A stretch of 64,000 bases of DNA from Albidovulum inexpectatum (lineage in GTDB: Bacteria > Pseudomonadota > Alphaproteobacteria > Rhodobacterales > Rhodobacteraceae), in assembly GCF_002927635.1 (NCBI RefSeq), contig NZ_PRDS01000007.1:62001-126000 (forward strand), written 5' to 3'. Below, one piece after another: positions 53,987 through 63,800 of this stretch. The notes below the pieces were generated by a model. It ran no database searches. It had not been told where the DNA came from and saw nothing but the letters and a program-made list of their open reading frames with translations. Position numbers and translations under genes: made by a program. Each line of letters begins with the position of its first letter. Position 1 is the first letter of the stretch.

Positions 53987-56905
53987 ATGGCCAAGAAAAT
54001 GCTCATCGATGCCACCCACCCGGAAGAGACCCGGGTCGTGGTGGTTGACGGAAACAAGGTCGAGGAATTCGACTTCGAAACCGCAAACAAGCGCCAGATT
54101 GCTGGCAATATCTATCTTGCAAAGGTAACGCGCGTCGAACCGTCGCTGCAGGCCGCCTTTGTCGACTACGGGGGAAACCGCCACGGTTTCCTGGCATTCT
54201 CGGAAATCCACCCCGATTACTACCAGATCCCCGTCGCCGACCGTCAGGCCTTGCTGGCCGAAGAGCGCGCCGCAGTACGCGAAAGCGATGACGAGGACAG
54301 CAGCCGCGCGCGCCGCAAGGCCGAGCCGAAGGCAGAATCGGCAGGAGCGGAGCAGGCTGCAACGACGGCCCAGGAAATCCCCGGAATGGCCGTTGTCGAT
54401 CTGGCGGATGAAGAGGATGCCGATAGCGGGCCGATCCCCGTGCCCGGCGCCGAGCAAGAGCCCGCGCCCTATGTCGCGGCCGATCATGCCACCGAAACGG
54501 ACCCCGAGATCGAATCGGTGGCCGATGAGGACGTGGCCGAGGAAATCCGCCCGCCGCGTCGCCCGCGTCCGCGCCGCTACAAGATCCAGGAAGTCATCAA
54601 GGTCCGGCAGATCATGCTGGTCCAGGTGGTCAAGGAAGAGCGCGGCAACAAGGGGGCGGCGCTGACGACCTATCTGTCGCTTGCGGGCCGCTATTGCGTT
54701 CTGATGCCCAATACCGCGCGCGGTGGCGGCATCAGCCGCAAGATCACCAATGCCGCCGATCGCAAGCGCCTGAAGCAGATTGCGTCCGAGCTGGATGTGC
54801 CCGAAGGGGCGGGTCTGATCATCCGCACGGCCGGCAGCGAACGCACGAAGGCCGAGATCAAGCGCGACTACGAATACCTGCTGCGCCTGTGGGAGAAGAT
54901 CCGCGAGCTGACGCTGAAATCGATCGCGCCCGCGCCGATCTACGAGGAAGGCGACCTGATCAAGCGCGCCATCCGCGACTATTACTCGCGCGATATCGAT
55001 GAGGTCCTGGTCGAGGGAGAGCAGGGCTATCGGACGGCCAAGGACTTCATGAAGATGATCATGCCGTCCCATGCCAAGAACGTGAAGCTGTACAACGAAT
55101 CCCAGCCCCTGTTCGCGCGCTACCAGGTGGAAAGCTACCTGGCCAGCATGTTCAACCCCGTCGTCCAGCTTCCCTCGGGTGGCTATATCGTGATCGATGC
55201 GACCGAGGCCCTGGTCGCGATCGACGTCAACTCGGGCAAGGCGACCAAGAAGGGCTCGGTCGAGGAGACGGCCCTGCAGACGAACCTCGAAGCGGCCGAG
55301 GAAATTGCCCGCCAGTTGCGCCTGCGCGATCTTGCCGGTCTGATCGTGATCGACTTCATCGACATGGAGGAGCGCAAGAACAACGCGGCCGTCGAGAAAC
55401 GCCTGAAGGAAAAACTGAAAAGCGACCGCGCCCGTATCCAGGTCGGCCGGATCTCGGGCTTCGGCCTGCTGGAGATGAGCCGCCAGCGTCTGCGCCCCGG
55501 CATGGTGGAATCGACCACCGCGCCTTGTCCGCATTGCCATGGCACGGGCATCATCCGCTCGGATGACAGTGTGGCGCTGCAGATCATTCGGCAGATCGAG
55601 GAAGAGGGCACCCGCAAGCGTTCGCGCGAGGTGCTGGTGCGGGCGCCGGTTCCGGTCATGAACTACCTGATCAACAACAAGCGCGAACATCTTGCGCAGA
55701 TCGAGGCGCGCTATGGCATGTCGGTCAGGATCGAGGCCGACCCGACCATGATCAGCCCCGATTACTCGGTCGAGAAGTTCAAGACCGCGACGCGCAATGT
55801 TCCCGAGTTCCACCACCAGGTGGTCAAGGTGGATGTCCTTGCCGAGGATGACGATGTCGTCGAGGACGAGGGGATCGAGGATCAGGCGCCCGACAGCGTC
55901 GAGGCTTCGACGGCCGAAGGCGAGGCACCGAAGAAGAAAAAGCGCCGTCGCCGTCGGCGCCGGAAGGGCAATGGCGCATCGTCGGACGTGGCTTCGCCCT
56001 CGACGGAAGCGTCGGGTGAATCCGAGTCCGATGCCGCCGATGCGTCCTCCACGGAGAGCGCGGCAGAGATGCCGGATGCCAATGAGGACGCTCAGGCGGC
56101 AAGTTCCGCGCCGGCCGAAGCACCCGAGATCGAAGCGGCGGCCGAACCCGCCAAGGTCGAGGAGAAGCCCAAGCGCACGCGCACACGTGGCGGACGCAAG
56201 TCGGCCAAGACCAAGGCTGCCGAGGCTGGAGACGATGCCGCCGCGCCGTCCGTTGCCGCACAGGTCAGTGACGCCGAATCTGCTTCGGATGAAGCCTCTG
56301 CAGGCGAAACCGAAGAGCCGGCCAGAAAGACGACCCGCAAACGCAGCTCGCGTTCGCGCAGCAAGGCGGCCGAGGCGACCGATGCTGCCGGTGCGGATCA
56401 GGCAGAGGAAACCCCGAAGCCAAAGACGCGATCGCGCAGCAAGCGAAAGAAAGAGGCAGACGCGGCCCCGGCCGAAACGGTCGAAACGACTGAAGCCCCG
56501 GTGGTTGCAGAGCCGACAGATACGACAGCAATGTCCGAAAGCGTCCAAGCCGAGGCAGAGCCGGAAGCGCAGGCAGAAATGCGGGATCAACCCGGTCCCG
56601 AAAATCAGGCGCCTGCACCGGCGGCCGAACCGGCTGGATCTTCCGGCCCGGCCCAGAGCAATGGCGAAGCCTCGCTTGTCACGGAACATGCTGGGGTCGA
56701 AAGCGGTCTCGACAGGCACGAAGATACGGTCGAGTCTCAGGCCACCGGCTCTGCGCCGATCGGATCTGCCGAGCAGGCCGAGACCCCATCAGAATCGCAA
56801 TCCCCGGAGCCTCGGTCGTCGGAACCGCAGGCCCAGCAACAGGCCGCGGCGACCGAGGAATCCGGCAAGCCGCGCCGGCGTGGCTGGTGGTCTCTGGGCC
56901 GCTGA
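53987..56905 (+). CDS. rne: Ribonuclease E
   Basis: A 972-residue endoribonuclease central to mRNA decay and rRNA/tRNA processing. An S1-like part (residues 35-75) and an acidic insertion (about 85-185) come first, then the catalytic domain with IVIDATEALVAIDVNSGKA (here split) and MEERKNNAAVEKRL, the Zn-link CPHCHGTG and EVLVRAPVPVMNYL. The C-terminal third is Ala/Glu/Ser/Pro-rich with basic KKKKRRRRRRRKG patches, a natively disordered degradosome scaffold. The ATG at 53987 starts MAKKMLIDATHPEETRVVV. Confidence 0.95.
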   Translation: MAKKMLIDATHPEETRVVVVDGNKVEEFDFETANKRQIAGNIYLAKVTRVEPSLQAAFVDYGGNRHGFLAFSEIHPDYYQIPVADRQALLAEERAAVRESDDEDSSRARRKAEPKAESAGAEQAATTAQEIPGMAVVDLADEEDADSGPIPVPGAEQEPAPYVAADHATETDPEIESVADEDVAEEIRPPRRPRPRRYKIQEVIKVRQIMLVQVVKEERGNKGAALTTYLSLAGRYCVLMPNTARGGGISRKITNAADRKRLKQIASELDVPEGAGLIIRTAGSERTKAEIKRDYEYLLRLWEKIRELTLKSIAPAPIYEEGDLIKRAIRDYYSRDIDEVLVEGEQGYRTAKDFMKMIMPSHAKNVKLYNESQPLFARYQVESYLASMFNPVVQLPSGGYIVIDATEALVAIDVNSGKATKKGSVEETALQTNLEAAEEIARQLRLRDLAGLIVIDFIDMEERKNNAAVEKRLKEKLKSDRARIQVGRISGFGLLEMSRQRLRPGMVESTTAPCPHCHGTGIIRSDDSVALQIIRQIEEEGTRKRSREVLVRAPVPVMNYLINNKREHLAQIEARYGMSVRIEADPTMISPDYSVEKFKTATRNVPEFHHQVVKVDVLAEDDDVVEDEGIEDQAPDSVEASTAEGEAPKKKKRRRRRRRKGNGASSDVASPSTEASGESESDAADASSTESAAEMPDANEDAQAASSAPAEAPEIEAAAEPAKVEEKPKRTRTRGGRKSAKTKAAEAGDDAAAPSVAAQVSDAESASDEASAGETEEPARKTTRKRSSRSRSKAAEATDAAGADQAEETPKPKTRSRSKRKKEADAAPAETVETTEAPVVAEPTDTTAMSESVQAEAEPEAQAEMRDQPGPENQAPAPAAEPAGSSGPAQSNGEASLVTEHAGVESGLDRHEDTVESQATGSAPIGSAEQAETPSESQSPEPRSSEPQAQQQAAATEESGKPRRRGWWSLGR

Positions 56906-56924: not shown

Positions 56925-56951
56925 AAATGCCGGGCGCACTGCCCGGCATTT
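56925..56951 (+). terminator. Terminator after rne
   Basis: A perfect 11-bp inverted repeat (56925-56935 with 56941-56951), 5-base loop, A/T-rich flanks, just after the rne stop. Confidence 0.8.
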
Positions 56952-56970: not shown

Positions 56971-57003
56971 CTGGATATATCGCGTTGCCCAAACTGGCCC
57001 TAC
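56971..57003 (+). promoter_or_regulatory. Candidate TauR site 1 before tpa
   Basis: Two direct repeats, CTGGATATAT (56971-56980) and CTGGCCCTAC (56994-57003), are spaced 23 bases start to start, 91 bases upstream of the tpa start. The same period recurs at the other two sites. Confidence 0.75.
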
Positions 57004-57093
57004 GCGCCGCGTTGGTTCCGTGGTGACCTAAGGCAGAAGGTCACGGCCGCGGCGCGCGTGACATGATGACATGCCCCATTTCAGGTGATCGCG

Positions 57094-58485
57094 ATGATCG
57101 ATACTGTCCATGCGAACGATCCTTCGGCCGTGATCGAGGCCGACCGTGCTCATGTCTGGCACCATCTGACCCAGCACAAGCCCTTTGAAACCGTCGATCC
57201 CCGCATCATCGTCGAGGGCCGCGGCATGCGTGTCTGGGACATCAAGGGCAAGGAATATCTGGATGCCGTTTCGGGCGGCGTCTGGACGGTCAATGTCGGC
57301 TATGGGCGCGAATCCATCGTCCGGGCCATAGCGGACCAGCTGATGAAGCTGAACTACTTCGCCCAGTCGGCGGGGTCGATCCCCGGATCGATCTTTGCCC
57401 AGCGCCTGATCGACAAGATGCCGGGGATGAGCCGGGTCTATTACTGCAATTCGGGGTCCGAGGCGAACGAAAAGGCGTTCAAGATGATCCGCCAGATCGC
57501 GTACAAGCGTTATGGCGGCAAGAAATACAAGATCCTGTATCGCGAGCGCGACTATCACGGCAGCACGCTGGCGGCCATGTCGGCGGGCGGTCAGGACGAA
57601 CGCAACGTGCAATACGGACCCTTTGCGCCGGGTTTCGTGCGTGTGCCGCATTGCCTGGAATATCGCCGCCACGAACAGGAAGGTGCCCCGTCCGAGCATT
57701 ATGGCGAATGGGCGGCCGATCAGATCGAGCAGGTCATCCTGCGCGAAGGCCCCGATACGGTGGGCGGCCTCTGCCTGGAACCCGTTACCGCCGGTGGTGG
57801 TGTGATCACCCCGCCTGACGGCTATTGGGAAAAGGTGCAGGAGATCTGTCGCAAATACGATATCCTGCTGCATATCGACGAAGTCGTCTGCGGCCTTGGC
57901 CGCACCGGAACGTGGTTCGGCTATCAGCATTACGGCATCCAGCCCGATTTCGTGACGATGGCCAAGGGCGTTGCATCGGGATATGCCGCCATTGCCTGCT
58001 GCGTGACGACCGAGGCCGTCTTCGAGATGTTCAAGGACGACCCCTCGGACAAGCTGGGCTATTTCCGCGACATCTCGACCTTTGGCGGCTGCACGGCGGG
58101 GCCGGCCGCCGCGATCGAGAACATGCGCATCATCGAAGACGAAAATCTGCTGGAAAACACCCGGAAGATGGGCGAGCGGCTGATGAACAACCTGCATGAG
58201 CTGATGTCGCGTCACCGGGTGATCGGTGATGTGCGCGGCAAGGGGCTGTTCTGCGGTGCAGAGCTTGTGGCGGACCGAAGCACCAAGGAGCCGGTCGAAG
58301 AAGCCAAAGTTGCCGCGGTCGTGGCCGAATGTGCCGCGCAGGGTGTCATCATCGGGGCATCGAACCGCTCGGTTCCGGGGCGCAACAACGTGTTGTGTCT
58401 CAGCCCGGCGCTGATCGCCACGCCGGACGATATCGACGAGATCACCACGGCGATGGACCGCGCGCTGACCAAGGTCTTTTCCTGA
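57094..58485 (+). CDS. tpa: Taurine--pyruvate aminotransferase
   Basis: A 463-residue class III PLP aminotransferase that converts taurine and pyruvate to sulfoacetaldehyde and alanine. The PLP lysine segment reads TMAKGVASGY and the cofactor region IDEVVCGLGRTG. The start MIDTVHANDPS (ATG 57094) follows AGGTGATCG; a GTG at 57085 is possible. The identity rests on the neighbours TauR and Xsc and the overall match. The sites at 56971-57003 precede it. Confidence 0.9.
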   Translation: MIDTVHANDPSAVIEADRAHVWHHLTQHKPFETVDPRIIVEGRGMRVWDIKGKEYLDAVSGGVWTVNVGYGRESIVRAIADQLMKLNYFAQSAGSIPGSIFAQRLIDKMPGMSRVYYCNSGSEANEKAFKMIRQIAYKRYGGKKYKILYRERDYHGSTLAAMSAGGQDERNVQYGPFAPGFVRVPHCLEYRRHEQEGAPSEHYGEWAADQIEQVILREGPDTVGGLCLEPVTAGGGVITPPDGYWEKVQEICRKYDILLHIDEVVCGLGRTGTWFGYQHYGIQPDFVTMAKGVASGYAAIACCVTTEAVFEMFKDDPSDKLGYFRDISTFGGCTAGPAAAIENMRIIEDENLLENTRKMGERLMNNLHELMSRHRVIGDVRGKGLFCGAELVADRSTKEPVEEAKVAAVVAECAAQGVIIGASNRSVPGRNNVLCLSPALIATPDDIDEITTAMDRALTKVFS

Positions 58486-58512
58486 CGCGCAGCAAATCCG
58501 GGCTTGACCCAA

Positions 58513-58567
58513 GGACCGATCGGGGCACTCTGCTGTAAGTCCAGTTTGCGTCACCCGATCGGTCCAG
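58513..58567 (-). promoter_or_regulatory. Candidate TauR site 2 before tauR
   Basis: On the reverse strand, CTGGACCGAT (58558-58567) and CTGGACTTAC (58535-58544) are again 23 bases apart, ending just before the tauR start codon. A perfect 12-bp inverted repeat (58513-58524 with 58554-58565) flanks the pair. This suggests autoregulation. Confidence 0.75.
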
Positions 58568-58569
58568 CC

Positions 58570-60027
58570 ATGCCCGTCGCCGCCGAAGGCTTCTTTCTTG
58601 ACCCCGGCTACAGGGGCACGCTGCAACAGCAGATCCAGGAGATGGTGCTGGAAGGCATCCGCGCCGGGCGCTTGCGGGCGGGGGACAGGATGCCATCCTC
58701 GCGCGCGCTTGCGCGCCATCTTGGGGTCAGCCGCATCACCGTGACGCTGGCCTATACCGAACTGGTCGCGAATGACGTGCTGGAGGCAAGGGGGCGTTCG
58801 GGCTACTTCGTCTCGGCCGCGGCGCCGGCCCTTCCGCCCGCGCGGTCGGCCCCGCCCGAACTGGATACGGGCATCGACTGGGCCGCGCGTATCGGCACGC
58901 GCCATTCGGACCACGGCATGCCGCCACGCATTCAGGATTGGCACGCCTATCCCTATCCCTTCATCTACGGTCAGGCCGATCCGACATTGTTCGATCACCA
59001 GAACTGGCGCAAATGCGCCCTGATGGCCCTGGGACGAAGGGACTTTGATGTCCTGTCGCACGACTTCTATGAACGCGACGATCCGATGCTGGTCGATTAC
59101 ATCCTGCGCGCCATTCTGCCGCGACGCGGCATCACGGCGCGACCAGACCAGATCCTGTTGACGATGGGGGCGCAGAATGCGCTTTGGATCGCGGCTCATG
59201 TCCTGCTGCGCCCGGGCCAATCCGCCGCGATCGAGGAACCGGGCTTTCATGGGTTTCGCACCATCCTGAACCAGCATGGCGTGGCCATCCATCCCGTCGC
59301 CGTGGACGAAGGCGGAATGCCCCCCGAGGCGATACCCAGGGGCGTGTCCACGATCTTTGTCACACCCAGCCACCATTTCCCGACCAATGCCACGATGCCC
59401 GCCATCCGGCGCGCGGCGCTTCTGGATCTGGCTCGGCGCAGGGATTTCCTGATCATCGAGGATGATTATGAATTCGAAACATCGTTTCTGCGCCCGGCAC
59501 AGCCCGCGTTGAAATCCCTGGATCGCACGGGCAGGGTGATCCATGTGGGATCCTTCTCGAAATCCCTGTTTCCGGGTTTGCGTCTGGGCTATCTGGTTGG
59601 CGCCGCGCCCTTCATCCGCGAGGCGCGTGCCCTGCGCGTGGCAATGCTGCGCCACCCGCCGGGGCATATCCAGCGTACCCTGGCCCACTTTCTTGCGCTT
59701 GGCCATTATGACGCACTGATCAACCGCATGAACACGGCATGGCGCCGACGCCGTCAGGCCATGAGCGAGGCCATCGCGCAGCATGGGTTGAACGTGGCCG
59801 GATCGGGGGACTTCGGCGGCTCCAGCTTCTGGATGCGGGCGCCCGATGGCGTCGATACCGAAGAGCTGGCCGCCCGGCTGCGACAGGACGGGGTGCTGAT
59901 CGAGCCGGGCCATGTGCACTTTACCCGACAGCCGGCGCCGCGAAACCTGTATCGGCTGGCCTATTCCTCGATCCCGCAGGCGCGGATCGCCGAAGGCATC
60001 GCGCGGATCGCGCGGGCGATCGGCTGA
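58570..60027 (+). CDS. tauR: MocR/GabR-family regulator TauR
   Basis: A 485-residue regulator with a GntR-type helix-turn-helix (about residues 15-80; SSRALARHLGVSRITVTLAY) fused to an aminotransferase-like domain with a PLP-lysine region GSFSKSLFPGLRLGYL. TauR of this family activates taurine genes in Rhodobacter capsulatus. The ATG at 58570 gives the family start; its Shine-Dalgarno is weak. It sits between tpa and xsc on the same strand, unlike the divergent arrangement of some relatives. Confidence 0.9.
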   Translation: MPVAAEGFFLDPGYRGTLQQQIQEMVLEGIRAGRLRAGDRMPSSRALARHLGVSRITVTLAYTELVANDVLEARGRSGYFVSAAAPALPPARSAPPELDTGIDWAARIGTRHSDHGMPPRIQDWHAYPYPFIYGQADPTLFDHQNWRKCALMALGRRDFDVLSHDFYERDDPMLVDYILRAILPRRGITARPDQILLTMGAQNALWIAAHVLLRPGQSAAIEEPGFHGFRTILNQHGVAIHPVAVDEGGMPPEAIPRGVSTIFVTPSHHFPTNATMPAIRRAALLDLARRRDFLIIEDDYEFETSFLRPAQPALKSLDRTGRVIHVGSFSKSLFPGLRLGYLVGAAPFIREARALRVAMLRHPPGHIQRTLAHFLALGHYDALINRMNTAWRRRRQAMSEAIAQHGLNVAGSGDFGGSSFWMRAPDGVDTEELAARLRQDGVLIEPGHVHFTRQPAPRNLYRLAYSSIPQARIAEGIARIARAIG

Positions 60028-60028
60028 T

Positions 60029-60061
60029 CTGGCTATATGACCAGACGAAAACTGGCCCTAC
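60029..60061 (+). promoter_or_regulatory. Candidate TauR site 3 before xsc
   Basis: CTGGCTATAT (60029-60038) and CTGGCCCTAC (60052-60061), 23 bases apart, differ from site 1 only at one base of the twenty. It begins 2 bases after the tauR stop and is 80 bases upstream of xsc. Confidence 0.75.
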
Positions 60062-60140
60062 AGGGCGCCGCAAGGCTGGGCCTAGATCAAGCAGCCACAT
60101 CCGTAACGGGTCGCGGCCAGACATGTTCAGGGAGGAAGCC

Positions 60141-61916
60141 ATGCGGATGACGACCGAGGAAGCCTTCGTCAAGGTCCTGCAACGTCACGGAATCGAGCAC
60201 GCTTTCGGTATCATCGGTTCGGCCTTCATGCCGATATCCGATCTCTTCCCCAAAGCGGGCATCAGGTTCTGGGACGTCGCACACGAATGCAACGGCGGCT
60301 ACATGGCCGATGGATTTACCCGCACGACGGGCAAGATGGCGATGATCATTGCCCAGAACGGACCCGGGATCACGAATTTCGTCACCGCGGTCAAGACCGC
60401 CTACTGGAACCATACGCCGATGCTGTTGGTGACGCCGCAGGCCGCCAACAAGACGATCGGGCAGGGCGGCTTTCAGGAAGTCGAGCAGATGCGCGCCTTT
60501 GCCGACATGGTGGCCTATCAGGAAGAGGTCCGCGATCCCTCGCGCATCGCCGAGGTGCTCAATCGCGTGATCTCGAAGGGCAAGCGGCTGTCTGCGCCGG
60601 TGCAGATCAACGTTCCGCGCGATTACTGGACGCAGGTGATCGATATCGAGCTGCCCGAAATCGTCGAGTTCGAGCGCCCCTCGGGTGGGGAAGAGGCAAT
60701 CGCTCAGGCCGCGCGCCTGCTGACCGAGGCGCGCTTTCCGGTCATCCTGAACGGTGCGGGCGTGGTGCTTTCGGGCGCGATCGAGGCAAGCCGCGCCCTG
60801 GCCGAAAGGCTGGATGCGCCGGTCTGCTGCAATTACCAGCACAACGATGCCTTCCCGGGCTCGCATCCCTTGTCGGTCGGACCGCTTGGCTACAATGGCT
60901 CGAAGGCCGCGATGCAGCTGATCGCGAAGGCGGATGTGGTGCTGGCGTTGGGTACCCGCCTGAACCCGTTTTCGACCCTTCCCGGCTATGGCATCGATTA
61001 TTGGCCGCGTGAGGCCAAGCTGATCCAGGTCGATATCAACCCCGACCGGATCGGGCTGACCAAGCCCGTTGCGGTCGGCATCGTCGGAGATTCCCGCAAG
61101 GTGGCCGAGGCGATCCTTGCGCGGCTGGGCGATGGCGCGGGCGATGCGGGGCGCGAGGAGCGCCGGGCGCTGATCGCGCAGACCAAGTCGGCCTGGGCGC
61201 AGGAGCTCTCCTCGATGGATCACGAAGCCGACGATCCGGGGACCGACTGGAACGAACGCGCGCGCAAGGCCAAGCCCGACTGGATGAGTCCGCGCATGGC
61301 CTGGCGCGCGATCACGTCCGCATTGCCGAAGGATGCGATCATCTCGTCCGATATCGGCAACAACTGTGCGATCGGCAATGCCTATCCGACATTCGAGGCA
61401 GGGCGGAAATACCTGGCGCCGGGTCTCTTCGGCCCCTGCGGCTATGGCTTTCCCGCCATCATCGGCGCCAAGATCGGCAATCCGGACGTGCCTGTCGTGG
61501 GTTTCGCGGGCGACGGCGCCTTTGGCATTTCCATGAACGAGATGGTTTCGCTGGGTCGGCCGGACTGGCCCGCAATCACCATGGTGATCTTCCGTAACTA
61601 CCAATGGGGCGCGGAAAAGCGCAACACGACCCTTTGGTACAACGACAATTTCGTCGGCACCGAGCTGAGCGAGCGCGTAAGTTACGCCGGCATCGCGCAG
61701 GCATGCGGGCTGAAGGGCGTTCAGGTGCGCACGATGGACGAACTGACCGACGCACTGGCCCAGGCCGTGCGCGACCAGAAGCAAGGCGTGACGACCTTCA
61801 TCGAAGCCCTGATCAACCAGGAGCTGGGCGAGCCGTTCCGTCGCGATGCGATGAAGGCGCCTGTCGAGGTCGCCGGCATTGACCCGGCCGACATGCGGCC
61901 GCAAAGGGGCGCATGA
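60141..61916 (+). CDS. xsc: Sulfoacetaldehyde acetyltransferase
   Basis: A 591-residue thiamine-diphosphate enzyme that converts sulfoacetaldehyde and phosphate to acetyl phosphate and sulfite. The start MRMTTEEAFVKVLQRHGIEH is the family pattern; the ThDP-binding GDGAFGISMNEMVSLGR and RNYQWGAEKRNTT (part) are clear. GGAGGAAGCC precedes the ATG. It overlaps tauE by four bases. Confidence 0.95.
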   Translation: MRMTTEEAFVKVLQRHGIEHAFGIIGSAFMPISDLFPKAGIRFWDVAHECNGGYMADGFTRTTGKMAMIIAQNGPGITNFVTAVKTAYWNHTPMLLVTPQAANKTIGQGGFQEVEQMRAFADMVAYQEEVRDPSRIAEVLNRVISKGKRLSAPVQINVPRDYWTQVIDIELPEIVEFERPSGGEEAIAQAARLLTEARFPVILNGAGVVLSGAIEASRALAERLDAPVCCNYQHNDAFPGSHPLSVGPLGYNGSKAAMQLIAKADVVLALGTRLNPFSTLPGYGIDYWPREAKLIQVDINPDRIGLTKPVAVGIVGDSRKVAEAILARLGDGAGDAGREERRALIAQTKSAWAQELSSMDHEADDPGTDWNERARKAKPDWMSPRMAWRAITSALPKDAIISSDIGNNCAIGNAYPTFEAGRKYLAPGLFGPCGYGFPAIIGAKIGNPDVPVVGFAGDGAFGISMNEMVSLGRPDWPAITMVIFRNYQWGAEKRNTTLWYNDNFVGTELSERVSYAGIAQACGLKGVQVRTMDELTDALAQAVRDQKQGVTTFIEALINQELGEPFRRDAMKAPVEVAGIDPADMRPQRGA

Positions 61917-62671
61917 TGGATCTGCCCCTGGGTCTTGGCGCGCCGGGGGCAGCCTTTCTGCTGGTCGCCGTGCTGGGCGCGGCAATCGTGCGGGGTTTCG
62001 CGGGGTTCGGCTTTTCGGCGCTTGTCGTTTCTGCCGCGGGGTTTGTGGGTGACCCGATGCGTGCCGTGCCGGTCGTGTTGTTCTGCGAGGTCGTCATGAC
62101 GCTGCAGGTCGCGCGCGGCATTGTGGCGGACATCGATTGGGTCCGCGTTGGCTGTCTGCTGATTGGCGCCCTGATCGGGCTGCCAATCGGGCTGAGCTTT
62201 CTGCTGGCGATTGGCGTCGATGGGGCGCGCGCTGCGATTTCGGTCTTCATTCTTGGCATTTGCATCCTGCTCGTGTCCGGCTGGCGCTTGCGCCGTGCCC
62301 TTGGGGCCCTGGGAAATGTCGGGCTTGGCCTTGTCTCGGGCGTTGCCAATGGCGCGGCCATGGCAGGACTGCCGGTGGCCGCGGCGATGAGCGCACAGCC
62401 GATCCCGCCGCGGGTCTTTCGGGCCACGCTGATTGTCTATTTCGCCGCGCTTGACCTTCTGTCGCTGCCGGTCATGTGGCGGGCTGGACTGATCGGGCGT
62501 GACACGGTGCTGGCCGCCCTTGCCACGATGCCTGTTCTTCTGCTGGGCAATGGGCTCGGTCAGTGGGGTTTTGCGCGGTCGCGTCCGGCCGGTTTTCGGT
62601 TGATCGCGGTCGCATTGCTGGCAAGTCTGGCCTCGATGGGGCTTGGCAAGGCGGTGCTTGGGCATGTCTGA
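61913..62671 (+). CDS. tauE: TauE/SafE-type sulfite/sulfonate exporter
   Basis: A 252-residue TSUP-family membrane protein with seven to eight hydrophobic segments and the GFAGFGFSALVVSAAGF repeat characteristic of the family. In taurine clusters it exports sulfite from Xsc. It overlaps xsc (ATGA) and the start of ackA. Confidence 0.85.
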   Translation: MMDLPLGLGAPGAAFLLVAVLGAAIVRGFAGFGFSALVVSAAGFVGDPMRAVPVVLFCEVVMTLQVARGIVADIDWVRVGCLLIGALIGLPIGLSFLLAIGVDGARAAISVFILGICILLVSGWRLRRALGALGNVGLGLVSGVANGAAMAGLPVAAAMSAQPIPPRVFRATLIVYFAALDLLSLPVMWRAGLIGRDTVLAALATMPVLLLGNGLGQWGFARSRPAGFRLIAVALLASLASMGLGKAVLGHV

Positions 62672-63800
62672 ACACACCATCCTGGTCATCAATGCCGGGT
62701 CGTCCTCGATCAAGGCCGCGCTGTTCGATGCCGGGCTTGACGTGATGATGCGCGCCAGCGTGACCGAAATCGGCGGGGCATCGCGGCTGGAAATCGGCAC
62801 GGAAGTGGGCCCCTGCAGCGCGCCGACGCATCAGGCCGCGCTGCGCCAAGTGCTGGCGGCCCTGGCCCGGAACGGCTATCCGCTTGACCGGATTCGCGCT
62901 GCGGGACATCGCGTGGTGCATGGCGGCCAGAATTTCACCCGGCCCGCGCGCGTCGATCCGGCGGTTCTGGCGGGGATCGAGGCCTGCATCCCGCTGGCGC
63001 CTCTGCATAACCCACACAACCTGGCCGCCATCCGTGCCCTCGGCGATCTTGCGCCAGATCTTCCTCAGGTCGCGGTGTTCGACACGGCCTTTCACGCAAC
63101 GGTCCCCGAAATTGCCGCGCGTTATGCAATCCCCGACGGCGAGAATGCGCGCGGAATTCGCCGATACGGGTTTCACGGCATCTCCTATGCCTCGCTGGTC
63201 GAACGGTTGCCCGATGCGCTGGACGGCAGGCTTCCGGGCCGGGTCCTGGCGCTGCATCTTGGCAATGGCGCGTCGATCTGCGCGATCAGGGAAGGCAGGT
63301 CGGTGGCCACGACCATGGGCTATTCGCCGCTATCGGGCCTGACGATGGGGACGCGCGCCGGGGATATCGATGGCAATGCCGTCCTGCGACTGGCCGAGAT
63401 ACACGGGATCGAAGCAGCCGCGCGCATTCTGAACCGCGAAAGCGGCCTGGTCGCCCTGGGCGGGGCGTCGGACATGCGCGTATTGCATTCAAGGGCGGAT
63501 GCCGCGGCAAGATTTGCAATCGAGCATTTTTGCTATTGGGCTGCGCGCCATTCGGGGTCCATGATTGTCGCCATGGGAGGATTGGATGCGATCGTGTTCA
63601 CCGGCGGTATCGGTGAGAACGACGCCGAGGCGCGCGGTCGCATCTGCGCGCATCTGGCGTGGCTTGGTGTCGAAATCGACCCGGCGCGCAATGAACGAAA
63701 CGAGGCGCGGATCGATTCCGGTGGTCTGCCGGTGCTGATCCTGCCGGCTGCCGAAGAAAAACACATTGCGCAGCAGACTCGACAGGTGCTGGGGGACTGA
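62664..63800 (+). CDS. ackA: Acetate kinase
   Basis: A 378-residue kinase of the acetokinase family with the phosphate loop VINAGSSSIKAALFD at its start, ALHLGNGASICAI and the C-terminal GGIGENDAEAR motif. It interconverts acetyl phosphate plus ADP with acetate plus ATP. The ATG overlaps the end of tauE. In most Xsc clusters a phosphate acetyltransferase is found in this position; here it is AckA. Confidence 0.92.
   Translation: MSEHTILVINAGSSSIKAALFDAGLDVMMRASVTEIGGASRLEIGTEVGPCSAPTHQAALRQVLAALARNGYPLDRIRAAGHRVVHGGQNFTRPARVDPAVLAGIEACIPLAPLHNPHNLAAIRALGDLAPDLPQVAVFDTAFHATVPEIAARYAIPDGENARGIRRYGFHGISYASLVERLPDALDGRLPGRVLALHLGNGASICAIREGRSVATTMGYSPLSGLTMGTRAGDIDGNAVLRLAEIHGIEAAARILNRESGLVALGGASDMRVLHSRADAAARFAIEHFCYWAARHSGSMIVAMGGLDAIVFTGGIGENDAEARGRICAHLAWLGVEIDPARNERNEARIDSGGLPVLILPAAEEKHIAQQTRQVLGD

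Follow-up and report, generated by a model that had tools for sequence, protein, structure and literature searches.

Do the three pairs of CTGG-initiated repeats upstream of tpa, tauR and xsc in Albidovulum inexpectatum serve as operators for the regulator encoded between tpa and xsc, and do they all act in the same way? We addressed this in a stretch of 64,000 nucleotides (called here the window; positions refer to it), by examining the genes of the locus, the repeats themselves and their counterparts in related loci.

A taurine degradation locus with its own regulator

All the genes concerned lie on the forward strand. A class-III aminotransferase gene (57094..58485, PF00202; alternative start GTG at 57085) was annotated as tpa, taurine--pyruvate aminotransferase, from its domain and the xsc context, and its homologues (68 to 85% identical) adjoin tauR/xsc in relatives. 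It is followed by tauR (58570..60027), coding for a MocR-type regulator of 485 aa, by xsc (60141..61916), a sulfoacetaldehyde acetyltransferase gene (TIGR03457, 940.6 bits for a cut-off of 676.4), and by genes for a tauE-type sulfite exporter (61913..62671, PF01925) and an ackA-type acetate kinase (62667..63800, TIGR00016 over its cut-off and PF00871). According to published work (PMC5320631), no TauR regulon includes both Pta and AckA, a rule that the acetate kinase gene of the window fits.

The regulator has the domain architecture of the MocR family, with a GntR domain (PF00392) at residues 18-81 and a class I aminotransferase domain (PF00155) at 189-480, both over their cut-offs. It matches GabR in the PDB along residues 18-420 (E about 1e-40) and contains the stretch SFSKSLFPGLRLGY, a candidate for the PLP-lysine region. 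With the TauR of S. meliloti, encoded on pSymB beside the divergent tauABC and the nearest relative of proven function that was found, it shares 52.6% identity over 96% of the sequence, which indicates orthology to this functionally proven protein. The gene context agrees, with tpa, xsc, tauE and ackA all adjoining tauR. Nevertheless, automatic annotation may call the protein PdxR, as it scores 342.8 bits with the NCBIfam model PLP_TF_PdxR (NF052282), the cut-off being 320. On that score it would be a MocR of the PdxR type, in charge of vitamin B6 genes, with the repeats as its sites. However, no operators were found at PLP biosynthesis or salvage genes, the motif sites of the genome being all at taurine genes; the tpa/xsc context is common to most related loci, and the box agrees with the published TauR box. 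We therefore regard the PdxR reading as highly improbable and the model score, on its own, as misleading; context and operators point to TauR.

Taurine uptake may fall outside this TauR regulon. The same genome has a gene for a TauA-like binding protein (contig C4, 283171-284037, L113; 298.8 bits, slightly under the cut-off of 304.25), and a TauR site at this distant gene was rejected, since the best pair there scores just 14.9 and has the wrong pitch.

Three repeat pairs with the same pitch in the window

The putative TauR operator of tpa (56971..57003, forward strand) consists of the boxes CTGGATATAT (56971-56980) and CTGGCCCTAC (56994-57003), and the ATG of tpa is located 90 bp 3' of the end of the inner box. 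That of xsc (60029..60061, forward strand) begins directly past the tauR stop codon and combines CTGGCTATAT (60029-60038) with, again, CTGGCCCTAC (60052-60061). The putative operator of tauR (58535..58567) is on the reverse strand, i.e., reversed relative to the gene, with boxes CTGGACCGAT (58567-58558) and CTGGACTTAC (58544-58535), and the tauR ATG is 2 bp beyond its end. In all three pairs the boxes are separated by N13, giving a pitch of 23 bp, so that both the positions and the identical start-to-start period described in the first-pass annotation of this DNA are borne out. Its consensus for the outer repeat (“CTGGMTATAT-like”) does not fit the outer box of tauR, CTGGACCGAT. Overall, the boxes of the window can be written as CTGGMCYTAC, CTGGMTATAT and CTGGACCGAT. 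Compared to the published TauR box, CTGGACYTAA, the CTGG start is common to all and the CYTA core to the inner boxes, while the final base is C instead of A.

The simplest alternative is that these are chance CTGG pairs in GC-rich DNA. Bare pairs at 23 bp (CTGG-N19-CTGG) are found seven times in the window, in unrelated places among others, for 2.4 expected (none of 100 shuffles reached seven), and on their own such pairs are unremarkable. The full consensus pair, in contrast, was found three times for 0.05 expected, and the pattern CTGG-N19-CTGGNCNTA retrieved only the tpa, tauR and xsc sites from the 3.0-Mb genome. A relaxed pattern gave no further match with fewer than two mismatches in the whole genome, the extra matches all carrying two. 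Moreover, the pitch has been kept in relatives while the spacers diverged (see below). Shuffles, genome uniqueness and conservation together rule out chance pairs, to which we give a negligible probability.

A third box-like word, CTGGGCCTA (60076-60084, within an element at 60076..60088 of the forward strand), is located 24 bp further downstream at xsc and overlaps a -10-like word, TAGATC (60083-60088). Its function is doubtful. As a conserved element it was rejected, since a box near that distance was found only in the window and in one relative. A further CTGGCCTTA-like box is present 44 bp past the inner xsc box in some Tabrizicola/Rhodobacter relatives (loci L063, L067, L090, L092, L099 and L112; 23 bp in L063).

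Conservation of the tpa and xsc sites

We compared 80 loci carrying a TauR relative, which are of common ancestry and do not represent independent events, using a box matrix trained on their tpa and xsc sites. With this matrix, 31 of the 32 regions upstream of tpa (window included) and 62 of the 64 upstream of xsc were found to carry a strong coding-strand pair, against only 3 of 875 shuffled regions. The pitch was 23 bp in all 31 strong tpa sites and in 58 of the 62 strong xsc sites (22 bp in the remaining four), although these counts lean to 23 because the training boxes came from pitch-23 pairs; tauR regions were outside the training. An earlier count, with the inner box alone fixed, also peaked at 23 (25 tpa and 48 xsc sites, five or fewer at any other distance). 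As in the window, the tpa and xsc pairs of relatives point toward the gene, and the tpa pairs also occupy the corresponding place. Identity within the boxes is 0.74-0.96 (0.89-0.96 for the inner ones), against 0.28-0.34 in the spacers. A scan of 149 genomes of the family with the bare pattern was uninformative, since the reversed-pattern control matched about equally often, and for this reason the case for conservation rests on the regions upstream of tpa, tauR and xsc. The repeats and their 23-bp pitch are kept at tpa and xsc in related tauR loci, and the geometry of the TauR operator is tightly maintained across the Rhodobacteraceae. The lack of conservation that the first-pass annotation had named as grounds for discarding its proposal is therefore not observed.

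With a box that matches the published one, taurine genes on both sides and sites conserved in relatives, the proposal of the first-pass annotation that TauR binds here gains support. Judging from these sequence comparisons, the tpa and xsc repeat pairs are very probably TauR operators (probability of about 0.9).

Position of the operators relative to the promoter

When the sites are aligned on the inner box, 34 of 89 have a TAnnnT word exactly 30 bp downstream of it, with three or fewer at any other offset. This fixed distance predicts the position of the contact with the polymerase and suggests class-II-like activation. Given the usual 17-bp spacer, the inner box would fall at the -35 position or immediately before it (about -42 to -34), as it does with class-II activators. 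Both -10 words of the window are poor matches: tpa has TGACCT, and xsc has TAGATC one base further on. No sigma-70 promoter was found there by a consensus scan.

A plausible scheme can be drawn from these data. TauR, a PLP-dependent regulator of the MocR type, would bind all three pairs as a head-to-tail dimer, with one winged helix per CTGG box. The signal would be taurine, bound to TauR as an aldimine, by homology to the proteins of R. capsulatus and S. meliloti. At tpa and xsc, taurine-bound TauR would recruit the polymerase as a class-II activator, turning on both genes and, by read-through, tauE and ackA. That the TauR of the window binds these sites, which way it acts on each gene and that it senses taurine are inferred.

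Relationship to known TauR systems

The TauR of R. capsulatus binds direct repeats CTGGACYTAA (Wiethaus et al. 2008, cited in PMC5320631). The TauR regulons of alpha-, beta- and gammaproteobacteria, reconstructed by genome comparison, likewise show a conserved motif (Suvorova & Rodionov 2016; PMC5320631). As far as these systems are described there, the window resembles them in the type of regulator, in tpa, xsc, tauE and ackA, and in the CTGGACYTAA box, the difference being that its inner boxes at tpa and xsc are both CTGGCCCTAC. By their sequence, then, the operators of the window represent a further case of the already known TauR switch. The candidate regulon “code” proposed for them is upheld as far as TauR is concerned, but it is not a new discovery, because box and regulons had already been published (PMC5320631). 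What has been gained is the confirmation, from sequence alone and in a further genome, of a known switch of sulfonate degradation.

In S. meliloti, taurine-dependent activation of PtauA by TauR has been demonstrated (PMC4254191). Both systems have paired CTGG boxes before a controlled gene, besides the similarity of the two regulators. However, in S. meliloti tauR and tauABC are divergent, with a single reversed 22-bp site between them, while in the window tpa, tauR and xsc are arranged in tandem, with three sites.

A reversed site in front of tauR

The site at tauR belongs to a class separate from those of tpa and xsc. Strong pairs were found upstream of tauR in 47 of 79 loci, always on the strand opposite to the gene and never on the plus strand, and the other 32 lack a strong reverse site. 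Their pitch is 22 bp in 32 of the 47 and 23 bp in only eight. Within the window's own genus, the xsc pairs have a pitch of 23 bp. At tauR, 22 bp prevails, with 21 or 24 in some cases, and the window is exceptional in having 23 there. The initial description of three matching operators is correct for the 23-bp pitch in the window, but the tauR site is unlike the other two, being reversed and overlapping or adjoining the tauR promoter and start. Slight variation of box distances within regulogs has been mentioned (PMC5320631); a reversed tauR site, mostly of 22 bp in relatives, is undescribed in the TauR-regulon literature that we compared.

Two layouts can be distinguished. In the far class (28 loci), the proximal box is mostly 13-16 bp from the tauR ATG, and half of the loci (14) contain TTG-N20-TA, a core with 17 bp of spacer in which TA falls at -12 from the ATG, for a null mean of 0.03 and a maximum of 2 in 2000. 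Here the boxes straddle the core, flanking it and filling the -35/-10 interval, and the tauR mRNA is possibly leaderless or nearly so. In the near class (32 loci, window included), the operator reaches the tauR start codon or comes very close to it. In 21 of the 32, TTGAC precedes the operator by 26-34 bp, a count in which some genomes were sampled twice. For the window, we propose a candidate core promoter at 58504..58531 (forward strand), made of TTGACC (58504-58509), 16 bp and a weak, putative -10, CACTCT (58526-58531), from which transcription is predicted to begin near position 58538, within the distal box. Whether by overlap or by abutment with the promoter, both layouts suggest that bound TauR would hinder transcription of tauR. 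Thus, the reversed pair would make TauR a repressor of its own gene, a reading of the sequence that we favor with some reservation. No report of TauR autorepression was found in the literature searched. Direct autorepression is known from GabR of B. subtilis, the best-studied MocR, which activates catabolic genes as well; GabR shares with TauR the MocR fold, direct-repeat operators and sequence likeness over most of the chain, but its ligand is GABA and its box is different.

The reversed site might instead go back to an ancestor in which tauR and tauABC were divergent, either as a remnant or as an activator site that is still in use. The pair of S. meliloti, located between tauR and tauA with a TauR-dependent PtauA, would fit such an origin, as would several loci in which a divergent conserved ORF is found upstream of tauR. 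Yet tandem and divergent loci do not differ in the orientation of the site, and it is retained in tandem loci where no divergent gene was detected (about 20 of the 34 tandem loci). Besides, its position across the tauR core promoter is constant in many loci, and the tandem loci have no -10 word at activation distance on that strand. An antisense promoter served by the reversed site was rejected, with a -10 at that distance in none of the tandem and in 1 of 11 divergent loci. On balance, we consider the ancestral arrangement an unlikely explanation and autorepression the better one.

How one MocR dimer could activate some promoters and repress another is the question posed by this flipped, usually 22-bp site. 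One tentative answer, to which we give somewhat less than even odds, is a geometry code with two classes, in which forward 23-bp pairs mean activation and reversed, mostly 22-bp pairs at the tauR promoter mean autorepression, with a leaderless tauR in some lineages. If so, the direction in which one and the same dimer acts would be set by a one-base change in pitch together with the flip, and the window, where the tauR site has 23 bp, would rely on the flip and the position alone.

Two other structures were noticed around the operators. A 12-bp inverted repeat, GGACCGATCGGG / CCCGATCGGTCC (58514..58566), absent from the consensus of relatives, encloses the distal TauR box of tauR, and the tpa-tauR read-through RNA that contains it is predicted to fold strongly (-37.5 kcal/mol, z -3.1). 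Finally, a stem-loop, AAATGCCGGGCGCACTGCCCGGCATTT (56925-56951), is found downstream of the large ORF at 53987-56905 and ahead of the tpa operator, and it is possible that it acts as a terminator insulating tpa.
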